Assembly (NCBI GenBank): GCA_016882485.1
Contig: VGPT01000007.1
Span: 1-58,859, forward strand
Length of the DNA: 58,859 nt
Source of the DNA: Cyanobacteria bacterium M_surface_10_m1_298
GTDB lineage: Bacteria > Cyanobacteriota > Cyanobacteriia > PCC-6307 > Cyanobiaceae
Reading direction: 5' to 3'
Below the pieces are notes generated by a model. The model was not told where the DNA came from and did no database searches. It saw only the letters and a program-made list of their open reading frames with translations. Positions 1-7,038 of the stretch are shown here, piece after piece. Position 1 is the first letter of the stretch, and each line of letters opens with the position of its first letter. Both the position numbers and the translations under genes were made by a program.

Positions 1-679
1 CATGACGCACCTCCTGCGGGGTGCCATCCGCCAGGAGCTGCCGATCGAGCACGAGCACGCGGTCATACGTATCGAGATCGCGGCCCCAGTCATGACTGCT
101 CACCAACAGCGTGAGCCCGGCATCCCTCAGCTGAGCCATCACCCGCAGCAACTCCTGGCGCGAGGGGGGATCAATGGCAGCGAAGGGTTCATCCAACAGC
201 AACACCTGGGCCGACTGCACCAGGGTTCGCGCCAACAGGGCGCGTTGCTGCTGCCCTCCGGAGAGTTGATCCAGGCGCCGATCCCCCAGCCCGGCTAGAC
301 CCACCCGCTGCAACGCCGCCTCCACATCGCAGCATCCGGGGCGCCGGGAGGAGAGTCGTCCCAGACCCACCAGCTCCGCCACCGTGATCGGGAAGCTCCA
401 GGTGATCTCCCCACGTTGGGGCATGAGCGCCAGGTGCTGCCGGGCCAAGGCCGGCGACAACACCTGCCCGTTGAACTGGATGGATCCCCCCGCCAGCGGG
501 AGTTGCCCCTCCAGGGCCTGAAGCAGGGTGCTCTTGCCCGCTCCATTCGGCCCCACCAGGGCGGTAAAGCTGCCGGGTTCCAGCACAAAGCTCACCTGAT
601 CGAGGGCGATCTGCTCACCTCGGCGCACCCGGATCTGACTCACCTCGAGAGACACCGCAGCAGGGCCAGGTGCCCTCAC
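1..679 (-). CDS. znuC: Zinc/manganese-type ABC transporter ATP-binding protein (partial, 3' end off window)
   Basis: This ATPase would power metal import from the periplasm across the inner membrane. Translating the minus strand shows the full ABC motif set in order: Walker A GPNGAGKST, a Q-loop (LMPQRG), signature LSGGQQQR, Walker B LLLDEP, and the SSHD switch histidine. The gene runs off the left edge near its C-terminus. The start is GTG at 679, with an in-frame alternative GTG at 655. It is divergent from the zinc-binding lipoprotein gene at 742, and the permease (znuB) is not in the window. Manganese or zinc specificity cannot be read from the ATPase alone; zinc is inferred from the partner gene and the Zur-like box. 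Confidence 0.88.
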   Translation of the reverse strand, partial: MRAPGPAAVSLEVSQIRVRRGEQIALDQVSFVLEPGSFTALVGPNGAGKSTLLQALEGQLPLAGGSIQFNGQVLSPALARQHLALMPQRGEITWSFPITVAELVGLGRLSSRRPGCCDVEAALQRVGLAGLGDRRLDQLSGGQQQRALLARTLVQSAQVLLLDEPFAAIDPPSRQELLRVMAQLRDAGLTLLVSSHDWGRDLDTYDRVLVLDRQLLADGTPQEVRH

Positions 680-710
680 GCTATCGAGGCGCCCGCGTCA
701 CGCCGGAGAA

Positions 711-723
711 GAGAATCGTTATC
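711..723. promoter_or_regulatory. Candidate Zur/Fur box between znuC and znuA
   Basis: GAGAATCGTTATC is an imperfect palindrome: the right arm TTATC is the complement of GATAA and the left arm GAGAA differs by one base. It matches the AT-rich core style of Fur/Zur operators (GATAAtnaTTATC) and stands out in GC-rich DNA. It sits 19 bases before the znuA start and 32 bases before the znuC start, so one site could control both. A Fur-family regulator lies at 5628-6113. Binding is inferred. Confidence 0.45.
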
Positions 724-741
724 GCTTCCTCGACTGTGGTG

Positions 742-1638
742 ATGTCCCGCCTGCGGCGCCTGGTCGCCACCGCCCTTGGACTGAGCCTGCTCACGGCGGC
801 CTGCCGCCAACCCCAGCCTGGTGCCGTTCAGCCCTCAGTGGTGGCCGCCGATGGGGCCCTCTGCGATCTGACGCAACGACTGGCCCAAGAGAGTGTGGCC
901 GTGACCTGCCTGCTGCGCCCTGGCGACGATCCGCACCAGCTGCAACTGACTCCTGAGCAGAGCCGTGCCCTTCAGCAGGCCTCAACGATCCTGATCAACG
1001 GCTATGGCCTCACCCCGGCCCTCGAGCGGCTGCCCCCGGCGATCCGGGTGGCCGAGCGCGCCGTGCCCAACGTGCAGGACCCCCATGTCTGGCACGACCC
1101 GCGCCAGAGCGCTGCGATGGCTGGGCTGATCAGCTCAACCCTTCAGGAGCTGGCCCCAGAAGCCGCGCCGCAGATCCAGCGACGCCAACGCGCCATGGAC
1201 GAGGCCCTGCTGGCGCTGGACCGTTGGAATCGAGAGCAATTCGCCACCATCCCAGCGCCGCGCCTGCTCGCCACCAGCCATCGCTCCTTGACCAGCCTCA
1301 GCCGTGCCTACGGACTCAAGGAACGTGCCCTGGTGGATGCCCACAGCTCGAGCGACAGCATCAGGCCCCAGGATCTGCGCCGCGCCCTCACCCTGTTGCA
1401 GCGCGAGCGACCCGCGCGGCTGTTCAGCGATCAACAGCCACCCAGTCGGGCCATGCAGCGCATCAGCAGCCTCAGTGGGATCCCCATTGCGCCTCAACCC
1501 CTCAGGGCAGACACGGCGATGCACAACCTGATGGCCAACCTCAGCGCCAACACCTGTCTGATCAGCGAATCTCTGCGGGGCCGATGCGATCGCATCGGCC
1601 AACGGGCGCTGATCCAACGCTGGGAAGCGATCCGCTGA
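742..1638 (+). CDS. znuA: Zinc ABC transporter substrate-binding lipoprotein
   Basis: This periplasmic lipoprotein would deliver zinc (or a related divalent metal) to the ABC importer whose ATPase is divergently encoded next door. The 298-residue product starts with a lipoprotein signal ending in the lipobox LTAAC (Cys21). It carries the cluster A-I pattern: a first His in DDPHQL, DPHVWHDP, and a later His in ATSHRSL. A long His-rich loop, typical of many ZnuA proteins, is absent. ATG at 742 was chosen over the upstream in-frame start at 670 because the signal peptide begins there. The 3' end contains a perfect 22-base palindrome (1579-1600). Confidence 0.85.
   Translation: MSRLRRLVATALGLSLLTAACRQPQPGAVQPSVVAADGALCDLTQRLAQESVAVTCLLRPGDDPHQLQLTPEQSRALQQASTILINGYGLTPALERLPPAIRVAERAVPNVQDPHVWHDPRQSAAMAGLISSTLQELAPEAAPQIQRRQRAMDEALLALDRWNREQFATIPAPRLLATSHRSLTSLSRAYGLKERALVDAHSSSDSIRPQDLRRALTLLQRERPARLFSDQQPPSRAMQRISSLSGIPIAPQPLRADTAMHNLMANLSANTCLISESLRGRCDRIGQRALIQRWEAIR
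1579..1600. repeat. Perfect 22-base palindrome with HIP1 core
   Basis: The 22 bases are identical to their own reverse complement and are centred on GCGATCGC, the cyanobacterial highly iterated palindrome HIP1. They lie inside the znuA reading frame near its 3' end. HIP1 cores are common in cyanobacteria, but the palindrome here extends seven bases beyond the core on each side. Confidence 0.8.
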
Positions 1639-1689
1639 GGGCATTGGCGCTCAGCGATCCCATCGGCACGGGCTCGTTGTAGAAAAGCT

Positions 1690-1812
1690 CATCTGGTTTC
1701 AGCGGGGATCAGCCGCTGAAGGAAACGGGGAAAGAACGGTGCAAATCCGTCGCTGTCCCGCAGCTGTGAAACACCGGATCACCGGTGTGAGTCAGAACGC
1801 CCGCCAGTGTTT
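1690..1812 (+). promoter_or_regulatory. Cobalamin (B12) riboswitch 1, upstream of the porin
   Basis: The leader carries the hallmarks of the cobalamin aptamer: a hairpin TTCAGCGG/CCGCTGAA (1698-1705 with 1713-1720), then GGAAAC and GGTGCAAATCC, the B12-box core CCCGCAGCTGTGA (1757-1769), and the closing GTGAGTCAGAACGC with CCGCC. It ends only about 15 bases before the porin ATG at 1829, which suggests control of translation initiation. No terminator-like T run was seen. Aptamer edges are approximate. Confidence 0.92.
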
Positions 1813-1828
1813 CAACCGACGCGGATCG

Positions 1829-3439
1829 ATGACTTCTTTCTTACCCAAGGCTTTGAGGAGCCTTGGCTCTTTGGGCTGTACGTGTGTTGTTGGGTGGGCC
1901 ACCCTCTCTCCGGCCCTGGCCCTCGAGAAGCCGGCGGCGCAGCAACAGCTGAGCAGCATCAGCCAATTCTCTGACGTGCAGCCCAGCGACTGGTCTTATC
2001 AAGCGCTGCGCACGCTGATCGAGCGTTACGGCTGCGTAGCGGGGTATCCCAACGGTCACTTCGAAGCACAGCGGCCCATCAGCCGCTACGAGGCGGCGGC
2101 ATTGCTGAATGCCTGCCTGGAGAGGATCTCGGAGGTCACCGATGAGCTCCAGCGCCTACTCAAAGAGTTTGAGCGGGAGCTCGTCGTGGTGGGCGGCCGC
2201 GTGGATGCGCTGGAGGCCAGCGCCACATCCCTAGAGGCCCTGCAGTTCTCCACCACCACCAAACTCTCCGGGCTGGCGGTGTTTGTGCTGGGGGGCAACC
2301 GCTTTCTCGGCAATGCCCAGAACGCGAACCAAGCCTGCCCCAGCCTGGACGAACCCTCCATTCAATTCGGGGTCGAGCAGGCCAGGCGTTGCTTCGGGGC
2401 GGCCACCTTCAGCTACGAACTCGAACTGTCGTTCGACACCAGCTTCACGGGCAAAGACCTGCTGCACCTCACCCTGAGAAACGGAAACTTCGTGTTCGCC
2501 AGCAACAGTTTTGGTGGCCCATTCCTCGCCCCCACCAACCTCTCGCAGCTGGAGATCGCGTTCCAATCCGATGGCGGGCCCAACGAAGTAGATATCGATC
2601 GCCTCTTCTATCAAGTGCCTCTGGGCGACTTCACGTTCTCCCTCGGCGGACGCATCGGCCAGGAAGACATGCTGGCCCTCTGGCCCAGCGTGTATCCCAG
2701 CCAAAGCATTCTCGATGTCACCACCTTAAACGGTGCGCCGACGGCCTACAACAAAAACCTGGGTGCAGGGGCCGGGCTGTGGTGGCAGAAGAACGGCTTC
2801 TCAATCAGCACCAGCTACGTGGCGGCCTATGGCGGTGATGGCAACCCCAGCCTCGGCGGCATCGCCACGGCGGGAGCCGGGGGCACCGGCACCGTGCAGA
2901 TCGGCTACAGCAAGGGCAACTGGGGAGTGGCCGGGATCTACTCCCAGATTCAGAACGAAAACGGCTGGGTGGGTTACACCACCAACTTCATGTTCAACAG
3001 CCTGATCTTCAACCCCGGCACCACGGCCGCCTTGGGCCTGAGTGGCTACTGGGCCCCTGAGCAGGCCGGATGGATTCCCTCGATCAGCGCCGGCTTGGGC
3101 ACTAACAAGACCACCTACGACCCCAACGTGGCCAACAGCGGTCTTGTGCAGAACAGCCGCTCCTGGGGCCTGGGCCTGCAGTGGCAGGACGTTCTGGTGA
3201 AGGGAAACACCGCGGGGATGGCGGTGGGGCAGGCCACTTACGCCACCAGCCTCTACGGCGGCGGCACCCCCCAAGACGCCAACTACGTCTGGGAGGGCTG
3301 GTATGCCTTCCAAGTGAGTGACAACCTCGCCATCACCCCGGCCCTCTTCTATCTGAGTCGTCCTCAGGGGGGAGTAACCCCCACCGACCAGAGCTTCAAT
3401 CAGCTGGGAGCCTTGATCAAAACCACCTTCCGGTTCTGA
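1829..3439 (+). CDS. SLH-domain iron-uptake-type porin (OprB family) under B12 riboswitch control
   Basis: This is an outer-membrane beta-barrel channel of the cyanobacterial SLH/OprB porin family, 536 residues. In order it has a signal peptide (cleavage near residue 32, after ALA), one SLH motif (about 46-95, FSDVQ..DW..YGCVAGYPNGHF..SRYEAA), a short coiled coil (about 97-135) and a carb-OprB-like barrel ending in the OM signature FRF. ATG at 1829 was chosen because it gives a clean signal peptide directly after the riboswitch. An upstream in-frame start at 1739 would lie inside the aptamer. Being behind a B12 riboswitch suggests a role in passing cobalt or corrinoids through the outer membrane. 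CobW follows on the same strand. Confidence 0.88.
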   Translation: MTSFLPKALRSLGSLGCTCVVGWATLSPALALEKPAAQQQLSSISQFSDVQPSDWSYQALRTLIERYGCVAGYPNGHFEAQRPISRYEAAALLNACLERISEVTDELQRLLKEFERELVVVGGRVDALEASATSLEALQFSTTTKLSGLAVFVLGGNRFLGNAQNANQACPSLDEPSIQFGVEQARRCFGAATFSYELELSFDTSFTGKDLLHLTLRNGNFVFASNSFGGPFLAPTNLSQLEIAFQSDGGPNEVDIDRLFYQVPLGDFTFSLGGRIGQEDMLALWPSVYPSQSILDVTTLNGAPTAYNKNLGAGAGLWWQKNGFSISTSYVAAYGGDGNPSLGGIATAGAGGTGTVQIGYSKGNWGVAGIYSQIQNENGWVGYTTNFMFNSLIFNPGTTAALGLSGYWAPEQAGWIPSISAGLGTNKTTYDPNVANSGLVQNSRSWGLGLQWQDVLVKGNTAGMAVGQATYATSLYGGGTPQDANYVWEGWYAFQVSDNLAITPALFYLSRPQGGVTPTDQSFNQLGALIKTTFRF

Positions 3440-3519
3440 TCCAAGACAGCCCGGGGCGGCCAAGCTCCAAACTGAAGCGAGAGACAGGGCGCCACCAGCC
3501 GCGCCGCCAGCGATTCCCC

Positions 3520-4656
3520 ATGAGCGCCAACGTGATGGAGCAAGCCCCCTCGGGACTGCCGGTGACGATCCTCACCGGCTTCCTCGGGGCCGGCAAAACC
3601 ACACTGCTCAATCACATCCTCACCAATCAGCAGGGCGTGAAAACCGCGGTGCTGGTCAATGAGTTCGGCGAGATCGGCATTGATAACGATCTGATCATCG
3701 CCACCGGCGAAGACATGGTGGAGCTGAGCAACGGCTGCATCTGCTGCTCGATCAACGGCGAATTGCTCGACGCGGTCTATCGCATCCTTGATCGCCCCGA
3801 TCCGGTGGATTACCTGGTGGTGGAGACCACAGGCCTGGCCGATCCCCTGCCCGTGGCCATGACCTTTCTGGGCAGCGATCTGTGCGACGCCACCCGTCTC
3901 GATTCGATCATCACCCTGATCGATGCGGAGAACTTCAGCGACGAGATTCTGGATGGCGAAGTCGCCCGAGCCCAGGTGATCTATGGCGACATCCTGTTGC
4001 TGAACAAATGCGATCTGGTGAGCAAATCGCGCCTGAGCGAGGTGGAAGCCAAATTGCGGGAGATCAAGACCGATGCCCGCATCCTGCGCTCAGTTAAAGG
4101 GGATGTGAGCCTGCCTTTGTTGTTGAGCGTGGGCTTGTTCGAAAGCGACAAGGTGGCCGCTGAGCAGAACCACGACGACTGCGACCACGACCATGGCCAC
4201 TGCGTGCATGAGCACGACCACGAGCATCACCACGACCACAGCAACTGCGATCACGACCACGGCCATTGCGAGCATGAACACGGCCATGGGCACGATCACG
4301 GCCATGAGCACGATCACAGCCATGGCGATCCGGATCACCTCGCGATCGAAGGCTTCACCTCGCTTTCCTTCAGCAGTGAAGGTCCCTTCTCCCTAAGGAA
4401 GTTTCAGAACTTCCTCGACAACCATCTACCGGCGGGGGTGTTCCGTGCCAAGGGGATCCTCTGGTTCAACGAGAGCAGCAAGCGCCATGTGTTCCACCTG
4501 GCCGGAAAGCGCTTCTCGATTGACGACAGTGAGTGGAGTCGCCCCTCGGAGCGCAAAAACCAACTGGTGGTGATCGGCAAGAATCTCGACCACGCCAAGA
4601 TCCGCAAGCAGCTCCAGGCCTGCGTCGCCAAGGATGCCGGCGAAGGCTTCTCCTGA
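3520..4656 (+). CDS. cobW: CobW/COG0523 GTPase with long His-rich metal-binding region
   Basis: A cytosolic GTP-dependent metal chaperone of the G3E/CobW family, 378 residues. Visible features are Walker A G-x-x-G-A-G-K-T (residues 20-27), the metal-binding CxCC motif C73-I-C-C76, the NKCD guanine-recognition motif, a histidine/aspartate-rich stretch of about 55 residues (about 217-273, mostly HDH and HGH repeats) and the CobW C-terminal domain. It follows the riboswitch-controlled porin by 80 bases and precedes a second B12 riboswitch, which favours a cobalt/cobalamin role. COG0523 members also serve zinc (ZagA/ZigA), and the zinc transporter is nearby, so zinc is the main alternative. Confidence 0.87.
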   Translation: MSANVMEQAPSGLPVTILTGFLGAGKTTLLNHILTNQQGVKTAVLVNEFGEIGIDNDLIIATGEDMVELSNGCICCSINGELLDAVYRILDRPDPVDYLVVETTGLADPLPVAMTFLGSDLCDATRLDSIITLIDAENFSDEILDGEVARAQVIYGDILLLNKCDLVSKSRLSEVEAKLREIKTDARILRSVKGDVSLPLLLSVGLFESDKVAAEQNHDDCDHDHGHCVHEHDHEHHHDHSNCDHDHGHCEHEHGHGHDHGHEHDHSHGDPDHLAIEGFTSLSFSSEGPFSLRKFQNFLDNHLPAGVFRAKGILWFNESSKRHVFHLAGKRFSIDDSEWSRPSERKNQLVVIGKNLDHAKIRKQLQACVAKDAGEGFS

Positions 4657-4669
4657 AGCCATAATTCGG

Positions 4670-4815
4670 GAGCGGTTTCTCGGATTCAGCCCGAGAAGGC
4701 AACGAGGAAAGTCCGGTGCGGTGATCACACTCGCCCACTCCGGCACTGTCCCGCAGCTGTGATGGGGTCGGCCTCCAGGCCGTAGCCCTCAGTCAGAACG
4801 CTCGCCGCACTCAAA
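4670..4815 (+). promoter_or_regulatory. Cobalamin (B12) riboswitch 2, upstream of hupE
   Basis: A second aptamer has the same plan as the first: hairpin TTCTCGG/CCGAGAA (4677-4683 with 4691-4697), GAGGAAAGTCCGGTGC, B12-box core CCCGCAGCTGTGA (4750-4762, identical to that of riboswitch 1) and CAGTCAGAACGCTCGCC. It starts just after the cobW stop and ends about 37 bases before the hupE ATG. It should repress hupE when cobalamin is plentiful. Confidence 0.92.
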
Positions 4816-4851
4816 CATCCCCATCAGCCCCGGCGTGGACCGGATCTGCCC

Positions 4852-5427
4852 ATGTCTTCGAAGTTGACCCGATCCCTGCTGGCGAGCTCCGCCGCAGGGC
4901 TGGCCCTAAGCCTGCTCTCCCTGCTGCCGGCCCAGGCCCATGGCGGCGCCGATCACGGCGTGATGGGCGGCGCTCTGCATCCCCTGCTGGGTCTCGACCA
5001 CCTCTTGCTGCTGATCGGTGTGGGGCTGGGGGTCGCCCAACTGGGCCGAGGGGTGCTGGTCGCAGCCCTCAGCGGTGCCGTGGTGGGCGGGCTGTTCGGT
5101 GGCTTCGGGGGCTCCCTACCCGGCGCTGAACTGCTGGCGGCTCTCGCTGTGGCAGCCCTTGGCGCTGCCCTGTTCATCAGCCTGCGCAGCGGCCAAGCTC
5201 AGGCTGCCGTGGCCCTCACCACCGCCTGTGCGGTGGGCATCCACGCCATGCTCCATGGGCTGGAATCCAGCGGCACGGCCGGCTGGTGGGCTGGAGCCCT
5301 GCTCGGCTCCGCGGCCGTGGTGGCCTGCAGCGCCTGGATCGCCCAGCGCTTCGATCAGCGCAAAGCCCTCGGGGCGGCTGCTCTCCTGACCTGCGCGGGC
5401 GGTCTTCTGGCAATCGCGCCCCTTTGA
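4852..5427 (+). CDS. hupE: HupE/UreJ family metal permease, predicted cobalt transporter
   Basis: An inner-membrane nickel/cobalt permease of 191 residues with an N-terminal signal sequence (cleavage likely after AQA, giving a mature start at His30), the family motif LHPLLGLDHLLLL (His43, Asp49, His50) and about six hydrophobic segments. A second histidine pair lies in GIHAMLHGLE. HupE proteins move Ni or Co. The B12 riboswitch directly upstream, a context described for cyanobacterial hupE genes, points to cobalt for corrin synthesis. The gene appears monocistronic or ends with the small ORF at 5494. Confidence 0.88.
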   Translation: MSSKLTRSLLASSAAGLALSLLSLLPAQAHGGADHGVMGGALHPLLGLDHLLLLIGVGLGVAQLGRGVLVAALSGAVVGGLFGGFGGSLPGAELLAALAVAALGAALFISLRSGQAQAAVALTTACAVGIHAMLHGLESSGTAGWWAGALLGSAAVVACSAWIAQRFDQRKALGAAALLTCAGGLLAIAPL

Positions 5428-5493: not shown

Positions 5494-5634
5494 ATGTCTG
5501 AGCTGATTGCACTCTCAGCGGTTCTGGGTGTGGTGGGCCTGATCTTCTGGCTCGTGAGCAACTCGGATGACGACAACGGTGGCGGTGGCCTGATGGAACC
5601 GGCTCTTGTGCCGGTACGGGTTCGCCGCTACTGA
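5494..5634 (+). CDS. Small single-span membrane protein, unrecognised
   Basis: A 46-residue ORF beginning MSELIALSAVLGVVGLIFWL has one hydrophobic helix (about residues 5-21), followed by an acidic/glycine linker (SDDDNGGGG) and a basic C-terminus (RVRRY). It lies 66 bases after hupE on the same strand and its stop overlaps the end of the convergent Fur-family gene by seven bases. No family is recognised. The amphipathic layout supports a real small protein, but translation is unproven. Confidence 0.5.
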   Translation: MSELIALSAVLGVVGLIFWLVSNSDDDNGGGGLMEPALVPVRVRRY

Positions 5635-6113
5635 CTCAGGCTCGTTGCTTCCTTCGCTGCGCAGTCGGGACAGAGTGCGCGCACATTCAGCACGCAGTTG
5701 AGTAGGCGAAAACCGTGGTGCTCGGCAGCCTGTTCTCCGGCCTGGAGCACCGGCACGCTCTCAAATTCTTCTGTGTGACCACAGCGAACACAGACCAGGT
5801 GGTGATGGTCGCGGTGGGCTTCATCGCTGGCCAGCTCGAAACGCCTTCCCCCCTCCGGGAGCTCCAGCTCACAGAGCAGTTCCATTGAACTGAGCAGGCG
5901 CAGGGTTCGATACACCGTGGCCAGTGACACCCGCTCTTCAGCCTTGAGCAGGCGTTGATGCACCTCCTCGGCGCTGAGGTGACTGCCTTCACCAAGCCGC
6001 TCAAACAGCGCGAGAACCCTCTGGCGCTGGGGCGTCAGCCGTTGCCCCCTGCCGTGCAGGGAACTGCGGAGCGATTCGGCCTGTAGTTGCGCGGCTGGAG
6101 GGACTGACACCAC
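5628..6113 (-). CDS. zur: Fur-family metalloregulator, possibly Zur
   Basis: A DNA-binding repressor of about 161 residues. The winged-helix part contains RLTPQRQRVLALF and SLATVYRTL. The dimerisation part holds the histidine cluster HRDHHHLVC and two structural zinc pairs, CVRC and CPDC. GTG at 6113 (or 6110) is preferred, because the longer frame to 6179 would overlap the upstream gene by 50 bases. The zinc transporter and a GATAA-type box five kilobases away suggest Zur, but Fur and PerR cannot be excluded by sequence reading. It ends the minus-strand run that includes larC. Confidence 0.75.
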   Translation of the reverse strand: MVSVPPAAQLQAESLRSSLHGRGQRLTPQRQRVLALFERLGEGSHLSAEEVHQRLLKAEERVSLATVYRTLRLLSSMELLCELELPEGGRRFELASDEAHRDHHHLVCVRCGHTEEFESVPVLQAGEQAAEHHGFRLLNCVLNVRALCPDCAAKEATSLSQ

Positions 6114-6129
6114 GCACCCAGGACTCTTC

Positions 6130-7038
6130 TCAACAATAACGGCTGTTGCGAAGCCTCGCCAGATCGGAGCGGGAGGCAACGGCGGCCACCAGATCGGCCA
6201 CCGAGACCACCAGGCGGTAGCTCAGGGCCAAGGCCAGCAATGGCGCCTCCGGCACCGTTGCGGCCAACCGCAGCACCAGAACGGTCTCGAACACCCCCAG
6301 GCCTCCGGGAGCCGCCGGCACCACCAAGCCAGCGGTCCAGGCCAGGGCAAAACCGCTCAACCAGGCACCCCAGCCGAGGTTGAACGAGAGCTCGAAGGCT
6401 TCAACGCAGCAGGCAAAGCCGGCGAAGCGCAGCAGCACAAAGCCCAGTTCAGCCAGCAGGGGCTGCCAGGGGTAGCTGGTCAGTGGCGGGCTGCCGTGGG
6501 CAGCGGAGGCCCCCTGCCCCAGCAGCTGTTGGGCGCGGCTGTGCTCCAATCGCTCCATCAAGGGATTGAGGCAGCGGGGCAGCAGCAGCCCCAGGGGGAG
6601 CAGGGCGAGGAGCGACCAACCCCCATCGAAGGCCACCAAGGCCAGAGCAGCCACCGCCATCAGCACCGGATCCAGCAACACCGCCAGCAGCGCCTGGGGG
6701 GTGGAGAGGGGATCGCTCTGGCGTTGCAGGGCACGCAAACGGGCATGCAGGTGCCAGACGCCTCCCGGCAGGTATTTGCGCAGGTTCGAGCTGAGGAACA
6801 GCAGCATCACGGCCCACCACTGGGGCCGGCGCCCCAACCAGCGCAGCACCACCCCCCAGGCCAGGCCATTGGCCATCAGGCTCACCAGGCTGAGGCCCAG
6901 GCCCAGCAACAACCACAGCCAACCCTGCAGATCCAGCGAGAGCTGCGTGATCTGAGCCCCATTGGTCAGCACCGACGCCAGCAGGAAGCCGGCACTGGCC
7001 AGGGTCACCCACAGCCGCACACTGCCGAGACCTTTCAC
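6130..7038 (-). CDS. Lysylphosphatidylglycerol synthase-type (UPF0104) integral membrane protein
   Basis: An integral inner-membrane protein of 302 residues with about eight hydrophobic segments, resembling the flippase half of MprF and the UPF0104 family. It contains the typical SNLRKYLPGGVWH segment and a C-terminal VPAAPGGLGVFE motif. No C-terminal lysyltransferase domain is present. The GTG start at 7038 overlaps the larC stop as GTGA, showing translational coupling; the longer frame to 7284 is rejected for that reason. The substrate (lipid or polyprenol) is unknown. Confidence 0.75.
   Translation of the reverse strand: MKGLGSVRLWVTLASAGFLLASVLTNGAQITQLSLDLQGWLWLLLGLGLSLVSLMANGLAWGVVLRWLGRRPQWWAVMLLFLSSNLRKYLPGGVWHLHARLRALQRQSDPLSTPQALLAVLLDPVLMAVAALALVAFDGGWSLLALLPLGLLLPRCLNPLMERLEHSRAQQLLGQGASAAHGSPPLTSYPWQPLLAELGFVLLRFAGFACCVEAFELSFNLGWGAWLSGFALAWTAGLVVPAAPGGLGVFETVLVLRLAATVPEAPLLALALSYRLVVSVADLVAAVASRSDLARLRNSRYC

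Follow-up and report, generated by a model that had tools for sequence, protein, structure and literature searches.

A zinc-island porin family of picocyanobacteria led by either a Zur-like box or a cobalamin riboswitch

The window analysed here is a whole contig of 58,859 nucleotides (VGPT01000007.1, contig C7 of a 1.99-Mb assembly that is 93.2% complete and comprises 145 contigs) from the picocyanobacterium Cyanobacteria bacterium M_surface_10_m1_298. Near its start lie, in this order, znuC (minus strand), znuA, a cobalamin (vitamin B12) riboswitch termed RS1, a porin gene with SLH and OprB domains, a COG0523 GTPase gene, a second cobalamin riboswitch termed RS2, hupE, and a Fur-family gene (minus strand). 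What stands out, beyond the cobalt route that an original prediction had proposed for this locus, is that putative zinc-island porins of this family are led by a Zur-like box or by a B12 riboswitch depending on the genome. We give a probability of roughly 60% to the reading that the window holds a zinc/cobalt island in which a grafted RS1 gates the porin and the island's own RS2 gates HupE, both proteins being made when B12 or cobalt is short.

Zur-like boxes and riboswitches ahead of the porin

A tblastn search with the porin gave 127 matches, from which 95 copies remained once duplicates and loci without entered genome coordinates had been removed; the sample was picked via riboswitch and porin matches, and its shares are not family frequencies. 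Thirteen copies are led by a B12 riboswitch and lack a box, 38 carry a Zur-like box, and 44 have neither. The box is found in none of the 13 riboswitch-led copies and in 38 of the 82 others (Fisher p = 0.0013, uncorrected for kinship). Boxes were scored with a matrix of 17 znuA boxes chosen by a Zur-like pattern and free of porin upstream sequences, and the threshold of 10.28 is the best score among 950 shuffled porin upstreams. Where the halves of a box read TTCTC, it could be a site for Fur. One locus in which hupE and porin lie 4 kb apart (L072) was counted with the porins not led by a riboswitch.

Both kinds of leader occur on closely related porins. One porin group (three rows, support 100, short branches) contains the orders box-porin-znuABC (G101), riboswitch-hupE2-porin-znuABC (G123) and riboswitch-porin-znuABC (G075). 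Elsewhere in the tree, the boxed porins of G181 and G193 have a riboswitch-porin-znuABC locus (G156) nearby. In G200, whose order is znuA-porin-GTPase, a Zur-like box scoring 27.1 occupies the place that RS1 has in the window, and G107 has the order box-porin-GTPase-riboswitch-hupE. No Zur-like box was found upstream of the window's porin, where the best score was -8.0. Because the copies in the genomes sampled carry a Zur-like box, a riboswitch leader or neither, but in no case both, zinc and cobalt alike are probably substrates of the porin, and the leader would set which shortage calls for it. One Anabaena porin has been tied to zinc, and a zinc-binding cyanobacterial porin is cited in the same work (PMC9705863).

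In the three loci of G156, G075 and G123 (L078, L159 and L153), the ZnuABC-type importer lies co-directionally behind the B12 riboswitch and the porin, an arrangement that hints at cobalt as the importer's substrate.

A core pattern, which requires the L5 core, picked out 115 distinct riboswitches among the loci retrieved. The first gene behind them is of HupE type in 105 cases, a porin in three (the window, G156 and G075), cbiM in three and no recognised gene in four. A porin follows hupE2 in 12 of the 105 HupE-first cases; these include two loci with cut-off porins (L063, L065) that are not among the 13 B12-led copies. Outside the window's genus, porins led by a riboswitch, directly or via hupE2, were found in three other genera of the family (g5, g30, g34); the link of these porins to B12 riboswitches and HupE thus recurs, and one more genus links them to a riboswitch-led CbiMNQO system. 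Within the genus, riboswitches are present in 24 of 25 genomes and number 46, three of them in the window's own genome. Another 40 genus regions hold one riboswitch each, followed by hupE or hupE2 in 39 and by no recognised gene in one (L089), and none of the three remaining genus riboswitches (L038, L051, L054; seen with 1.5-kb flanks only) is porin-first. Among the literature matches listed, no account of a B12 riboswitch ahead of a porin was found; RegPrecise lay outside this search, and an earlier notice is possible.

Several other arrangements were observed in this survey. Two loci of another genus (L070 5766-13350 in G083 and L061 1-7589 in G128) show, co-directionally, a porin, a riboswitch, cbiMNQO, a COG0523 gene, a second riboswitch and hupE, a putative cobalt island with two riboswitches; the G083 porin also has a Zur-like box (19.4). 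In L179 and L180 (G193, G181), a riboswitch precedes two different hupE genes in tandem. The riboswitch match of L089 without a recognised gene behind it (about 6849-6995, G115) is weak, at 33.6 bits.

Organization of the locus

The features of the window that enter the argument are listed below, with their basis in brackets (PWM, position weight matrix).

2..661, minus strand: ZnuC-like ABC ATPase, truncated by the contig start (PF00005, 105.7 bits)
710..726, plus strand: Zur-box-like palindrome upstream of znuA (PWM score 18.8)
742..1638, plus strand: ZnuA-type metal-binding protein (PF01297, 136.1 bits)
1633..1656, plus strand: possible hairpin, a 7-bp inverted repeat over the znuA stop codon, without a T run (sequence)
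1677..1822, plus strand: RS1, cobalamin riboswitch aptamer, type A lineage (RF00174, 56.3 bits; tail type and tree)
1817..1828, plus strand: P13/L13 hairpin of RS1, loop CGCGGA at 1820-1825, with a complementary L5 UCCCG at 1756-1760 (sequence)
1829..3439, plus strand: SLH and OprB outer-membrane porin, N terminus signal-peptide-like by eye (NF033921, PF04966, PF00395)
3520..4656, plus strand: COG0523 GTPase with CxCC motif and His-rich linker (PF02492, 189.1 bits; PF07683, 90.6 bits)
4656..4823, plus strand: RS2, cobalamin riboswitch aptamer, type B lineage (RF00174, 50.0 bits; tail type and tree)
4830..4843, plus strand: P13/L13 hairpin of RS2, loop CGTGGA at 4834-4839, L5 UCCCG at 4749-4753 (sequence)
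4852..5427, plus strand: HupE/UreJ-family permease (PF04955, 49.3 bits, cut-off 23)
5628..6179, minus strand: Fur-family regulator, closer to Fur than to SynZur (PF01475, 115.3 bits)

The profile scores uphold the identities first proposed for the porin (NF033921, 232.4 bits, cut-off 100; PF04966, 38.4, cut-off 22.9; PF00395, 33.9, cut-off 20.8) and for HupE. Three SLH-domain sequences of the PDB matched the porin over its N-terminal part; HupE had no match there. The two aptamers and three genes of the original prediction are all present, but the riboswitches do not bracket all three genes: RS1 stands ahead of the porin, and RS2 separates the GTPase gene from hupE. The prediction made no mention of znuC, znuA and the Zur-like box on the upstream side or of the Fur-family gene on the downstream side. 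A scan of genome contigs for the porin gave six loci; one of them (L232), which has the same cluster, is labelled Vulcanococcus, probably also the genus of the window.

The cobalamin riboswitches and their expression platform

Both leaders are genuine cobalamin riboswitches, as had been predicted: Infernal matched RF00174 (gathering cut-off 31.5 bits) at RS1 with an E-value of 2.4e-11 and at RS2 with 1.6e-09. RF01689 has no row in the Infernal table, from which one weaker overlapping match of the same clan was omitted. The third riboswitch of the genome (RS3, contig C16, 62.3 bits) lies ahead of hupE2 and a COG0523 gene. The B12-box cores of RS1 and RS2 are indeed identical, as first noticed, but the identity is uninformative, the core being invariant or nearly so in 28 aligned riboswitches; for the same reason it was rejected as a sign of kinship between the two.

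The aptamer match ends 6 nt before the porin start codon in RS1 and 28 nt before that of hupE in RS2. In RS1 a loop GGA resembling a Shine-Dalgarno (SD) sequence stands 3 nt before the porin ATG. The corresponding loop GGA of RS2 stands 12 nt before the hupE ATG, and a second GGA (4842-4844), which starts in the 3' arm of the hairpin, stands 7 nt before it. The motif CGNGGA occurs in the tail behind the aptamer in 111 of the 115 riboswitches; shuffled tails (200 rounds) contained it 9.7 times on average and 18 times at most. It lies in the loop of a short hairpin (3-4 bp) with covarying pairs: the closing pair is A-U in 42, G-C in 68 and other in 1, and the third pair is C-G in 85, U-A in 23 and other in 3. 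All 28 aligned riboswitches share the L5 stretch UGUCCCGCA unchanged; this invariance has to rest on the 28-row alignment, because the pattern that found the 115 itself demands the L5 core. By eye, UCC and CG of L5 can pair with GGA and CG of the L13 loop in both RS1 and RS2.

A kissing loop between L5 and L13 has already been described for the cobalamin riboswitch (PMC9600662). Since each P13 hairpin holds an SD-like GGA complementary to L5, RS1 and RS2 probably repress translation through L5-L13 pairing. Folding of the leaders showed no clear gain over shuffled sequences (z = -1.36 and -0.92). A pairing of P4 CGTCG with the tail CGACG was considered and rejected; L029 and L007 retain the tail without its partner, and the UCCCG-CGNGGA pairing fits instead. 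The RS2 P4 loop carries an extra stretch (about 4718-4735) that is common to several relatives in the genus and absent from RS1. Leaders of btuB type (RF00174, L5-L13, translational) have the same aptamer, the conserved core and an L13 hairpin at the ribosome site; they precede a TonB-dependent receptor, whereas RS1 precedes an SLH/OprB porin.

Two riboswitch lineages and the origin of RS1

The 111 tails fall into type A (CGA-CGNGGA-UCG, 42) and type B (GG-CGNGGA-CC, 69). RS1 belongs to type A, RS2 and RS3 to type B. The tree of all 115 riboswitches places RS1 in a group with support 100/99 that has 44 members, 41 of type A and three from cbiM operons, and RS2 in one with support 100/97 that consists of 34 type B riboswitches. 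In the 28-row alignment, RS1 is closest to L021, L152 and L078 of another genus (78.5, 75.8 and 73.6%); the closest to RS2 is a hupE riboswitch from the window's own genus (L092, 72.2%).

The blastn matches of the two regions differ in extent. For RS1 the best 14 of 123 matches are confined to 1689-1839, the best of all being 88.9% over 144 nt to L080 of G141, a riboswitch-hupE2-porin locus; the sharpness of the edge at the start codon is partly expected, since a different gene follows. The best 14 of 69 matches of the RS2 region span nearly the whole 500 nt into the flanks, and all are from the window's own genus. An origin of RS1 as a tandem copy of RS2 was ruled out by its other clade, its other tail type and its nearest leaders, which are from other genera. 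RS1 looks like a leader grafted onto the porin, because its lineage differs from that of RS2 and its nearest leaders are hupE2 leaders of other genera.

A second foreign-looking leader was observed in G092 (L084, C1:1699265-1699412), where a type A riboswitch precedes hupE2 and the other two riboswitches of the genome are of type B.

The zinc island and its transcription

With znuC, znuA and the Zur-like box, the island is of zinc type by its gene content. The window's znuC is 70-82% identical to znuC in seven regions of the same genus. In relatives, a palindrome like TGAGAAYNRTTATCRTT lies upstream of znuA; the window's copy is weaker and is a candidate site. Scored with a matrix that excludes this box, it reaches 18.8; the best of 950 shuffles gives 10.28. 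The zinc-type neighbourhood means that the porin may pass Zn2+, Co2+ or both. The znu cluster of Synechococcus WH8102 is Zur-repressed, and there too znuC and znuA diverge on either side of a Zur box (PMC9337993). The window's cluster adds a riboswitch-led porin and a COG0523 gene; the words "porin", "cobW" and "COG0523" are absent from the main text of that paper.

The Fur-family gene at the end of the cluster was considered as zur and rejected as a SynZur orthologue: its best PDB match is 9ire, "Ferric uptake regulation protein", with 85.4 bits, against 46.9 bits to SynZur (7ne9; PMC9337993). A gene beside znuC in L095 reaches 172.2 bits to 7ne9. Among the matches in relatives, those of 77-89% identity are the Fur-like gene, and those at about 30-39%, located next to znuC or the porin, would be of SynZur type, judging from the one tested (L095). 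No gene of SynZur type was found in the window's own genome, where the contig begins inside znuC and the gene may lie beyond.

The zinc-type setting also allows for nested control, in which a Zur-repressed promoter before znuA would read through znuA, RS1, porin, GTPase gene, RS2 and hupE while the riboswitches gate translation only, so that the porin would be made only if zinc and B12 were both low. This is the most serious alternative, although we consider it rather unlikely. The gaps suit it, RS1 starting 38 nt past the znuA stop, the GTPase gene 80 nt past the porin, and the RS2 match on the last base of the GTPase stop codon, as does the Zur-like box at 710-726. Between 600 and 6300 no promoter-like site and no plus-strand terminator-like site was found, but the promoter scan was limited to a sigma-70 consensus and did not pick out a promoter before znuA; because nothing promoter-like was found anywhere in that stretch, the scan says little. 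The hairpin at 1633-1656 might end the znuA transcript, and it is absent from the list of terminator-like sites. Moreover, a cobalt response that zinc sufficiency could silence would presumably serve B12 supply poorly.

The cobalt route and the GTPase

The original prediction had the porin, HupE and a His-rich CobW GTPase carry cobalt from the outer membrane to a cytosolic chaperone, in place of a TonB-dependent receptor. The absence of such a receptor extends beyond the window: a search for PF00593 was negative in all 25 genomes of the genus, 14 of which are 90% complete or more, and CbiM was likewise found in 0 of 25. The genome encodes CobN (TIGR02257, 1631.2 bits), consistent with a requirement for inorganic cobalt. 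With riboswitches ahead of both genes and no TonB receptor found, porin and HupE could plausibly make up a route for cobalt, and we infer that RS1 and RS2 would act together as one such route; it is the GTPase step, as first proposed, that lacks support.

Known systems offer partial parallels. In marine cyanobacteria hupE is under a B12 riboswitch and HupE has been proposed as a cobalt carrier (PMC4284471); RS2-hupE and RS3-hupE2 are of the same kind, and the window differs in having a riboswitch of another lineage ahead of an upstream porin in the same cluster. The BtuB2 operon of Anabaena 7120 is riboswitch-linked and induced by cobalt starvation (PMC10878165). It shares with the window's locus a riboswitch-linked outer-membrane step, but it uses a TonB-dependent corrinoid receptor, and none was found in the window's genus.

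The GTPase belongs to COG0523 by both of its domains and its CxCC motif. Neither a CobW nor a ZigA name holds, the scores being 165.9 for TIGR02475 (cut-off 332.1) and 201.1 for ZigA (cut-off 600). CobW has an extra cysteine pair, C56/C61, that is missing in Zn-preferring relatives (PMC7895991), and no such pair precedes CxCC in the window's GTPase. Only two PF02492 proteins were found in the genome, and it is the other, a paralogue on C16 behind RS3 and hupE2 (L239), that passes the CobW cut-off with 362.6; it has CGFC in the extra-cysteine region, at a spacing other than that of C56/C61. The window's protein is more likely a zinc-type COG0523 protein. Cyanobacterial cobW orthologues are reported not to be under a B12 riboswitch (PMC2770081); hupE2-cobW2 behind a riboswitch in 36 of the 115 cases departs from this, if cobW2 is CobW, which was checked for the C16 copy only.

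These data make it improbable that porin, HupE and the window's GTPase serve together as a single path devoted to cobalt, leading from the outer membrane into the cytosol. The riboswitches before porin and hupE, the negative searches for TonB receptor and CbiM, and the His-rich GTPase kept beside RS2-hupE in many genomes of the genus would suit such a path; the GTPase itself speaks against it, failing the CobW model that the C16 protein passes and following Zur-boxed porins in relatives (G200, G107, G108).

Weighing the reading

Several observations weigh against a zinc/cobalt island with a grafted porin leader. When kinship is counted, the mutual exclusion of box and riboswitch is not significant: the porin comparison shrinks to six independent pairs, with the box opposite in two to three and the same way in none (sign test p at least 0.25, a test that cannot reach 0.05 here). 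Nearly half of the porin copies (44 of 95) have neither leader, although for a few of them (L061, L175) the available sequence starts at the porin or barely ahead of it. The NCBIfam model NF033921 is named "iron uptake porin", and the metal specificity of the porin is only predicted. Only 125 columns underlie the riboswitch tree, on which three changes of tail type are required. Within the genus, RS1 ahead of a porin is seen in the window's assembly alone, near a contig end. The B12-dependent MetH (PF02965) was not found in this 93%-complete genome, in a search limited to MetH among B12 enzymes. Finally, the closest porins, in G211 (78%; L232) and in G092 and G009 (68-69%, tblastn), have neither box nor riboswitch, so that the nearest kin give no evidence of a swap from Zur to B12 in the window's own lineage.

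In L173 (5950-6723) and L232 (3-797), from G009 and G211, similar and probably exported proteins with a His-containing N-terminal part are encoded directly upstream of the porin, at the place of RS1.

That RS1 is a relic or of little effect, its position accidental and the porin a general outer-membrane channel, is very improbable: the bare leaders of the closest porins, the single RS1-porin genome of the genus and the short SD-to-ATG spacing of 3 nt would agree with it, but RS1 retains the conserved core, P13 and L5, and riboswitch leaders also precede family porins in the three other genera.

The favoured reading is thus a zinc/cobalt island of a Vulcanococcus-type picocyanobacterium, with RS1, of a foreign lineage, before the porin and the island's own RS2 before hupE. 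With corrinoid bound, L5-L13 pairing would hide the ribosome site, and porin and HupE would not be made. When cobalamin, and hence cobalt, is short, both would be translated and Co2+ could enter through the two proteins. The CobW function would be encoded elsewhere, behind RS3, leaving the window's GTPase outside that role.

Implications

At issue is how cobalt and zinc pass the outer membrane of picocyanobacteria that lack TonB receptors. A porin preceded in some strains by a zinc-repressor-like site and in other strains by a B12 riboswitch provides a concrete test gene, and it bears on cobalt-zinc exchange in aquatic phytoplankton. A wider proposal, which we advance tentatively, is that a picocyanobacterial metal porin of the outer membrane, joined in one genus by a complete ZnuABC-type importer, switches between Zur-box and B12-riboswitch control by exchange of leaders. 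Riboswitch leaders of about 140 nt would then move as cassettes, and the systems they lead would import cobalt by an unrecognised outer-membrane route that does not involve TonB; the riboswitch-porin-znuABC order has been seen in one genus only. The leaders compared here suggest that a metal porin of this kind can be coupled to the supply of zinc or, alternatively, to that of cobalt and B12. If true, this would mean that riboswitch leaders take the place of a transcription-factor site within a single gene family.

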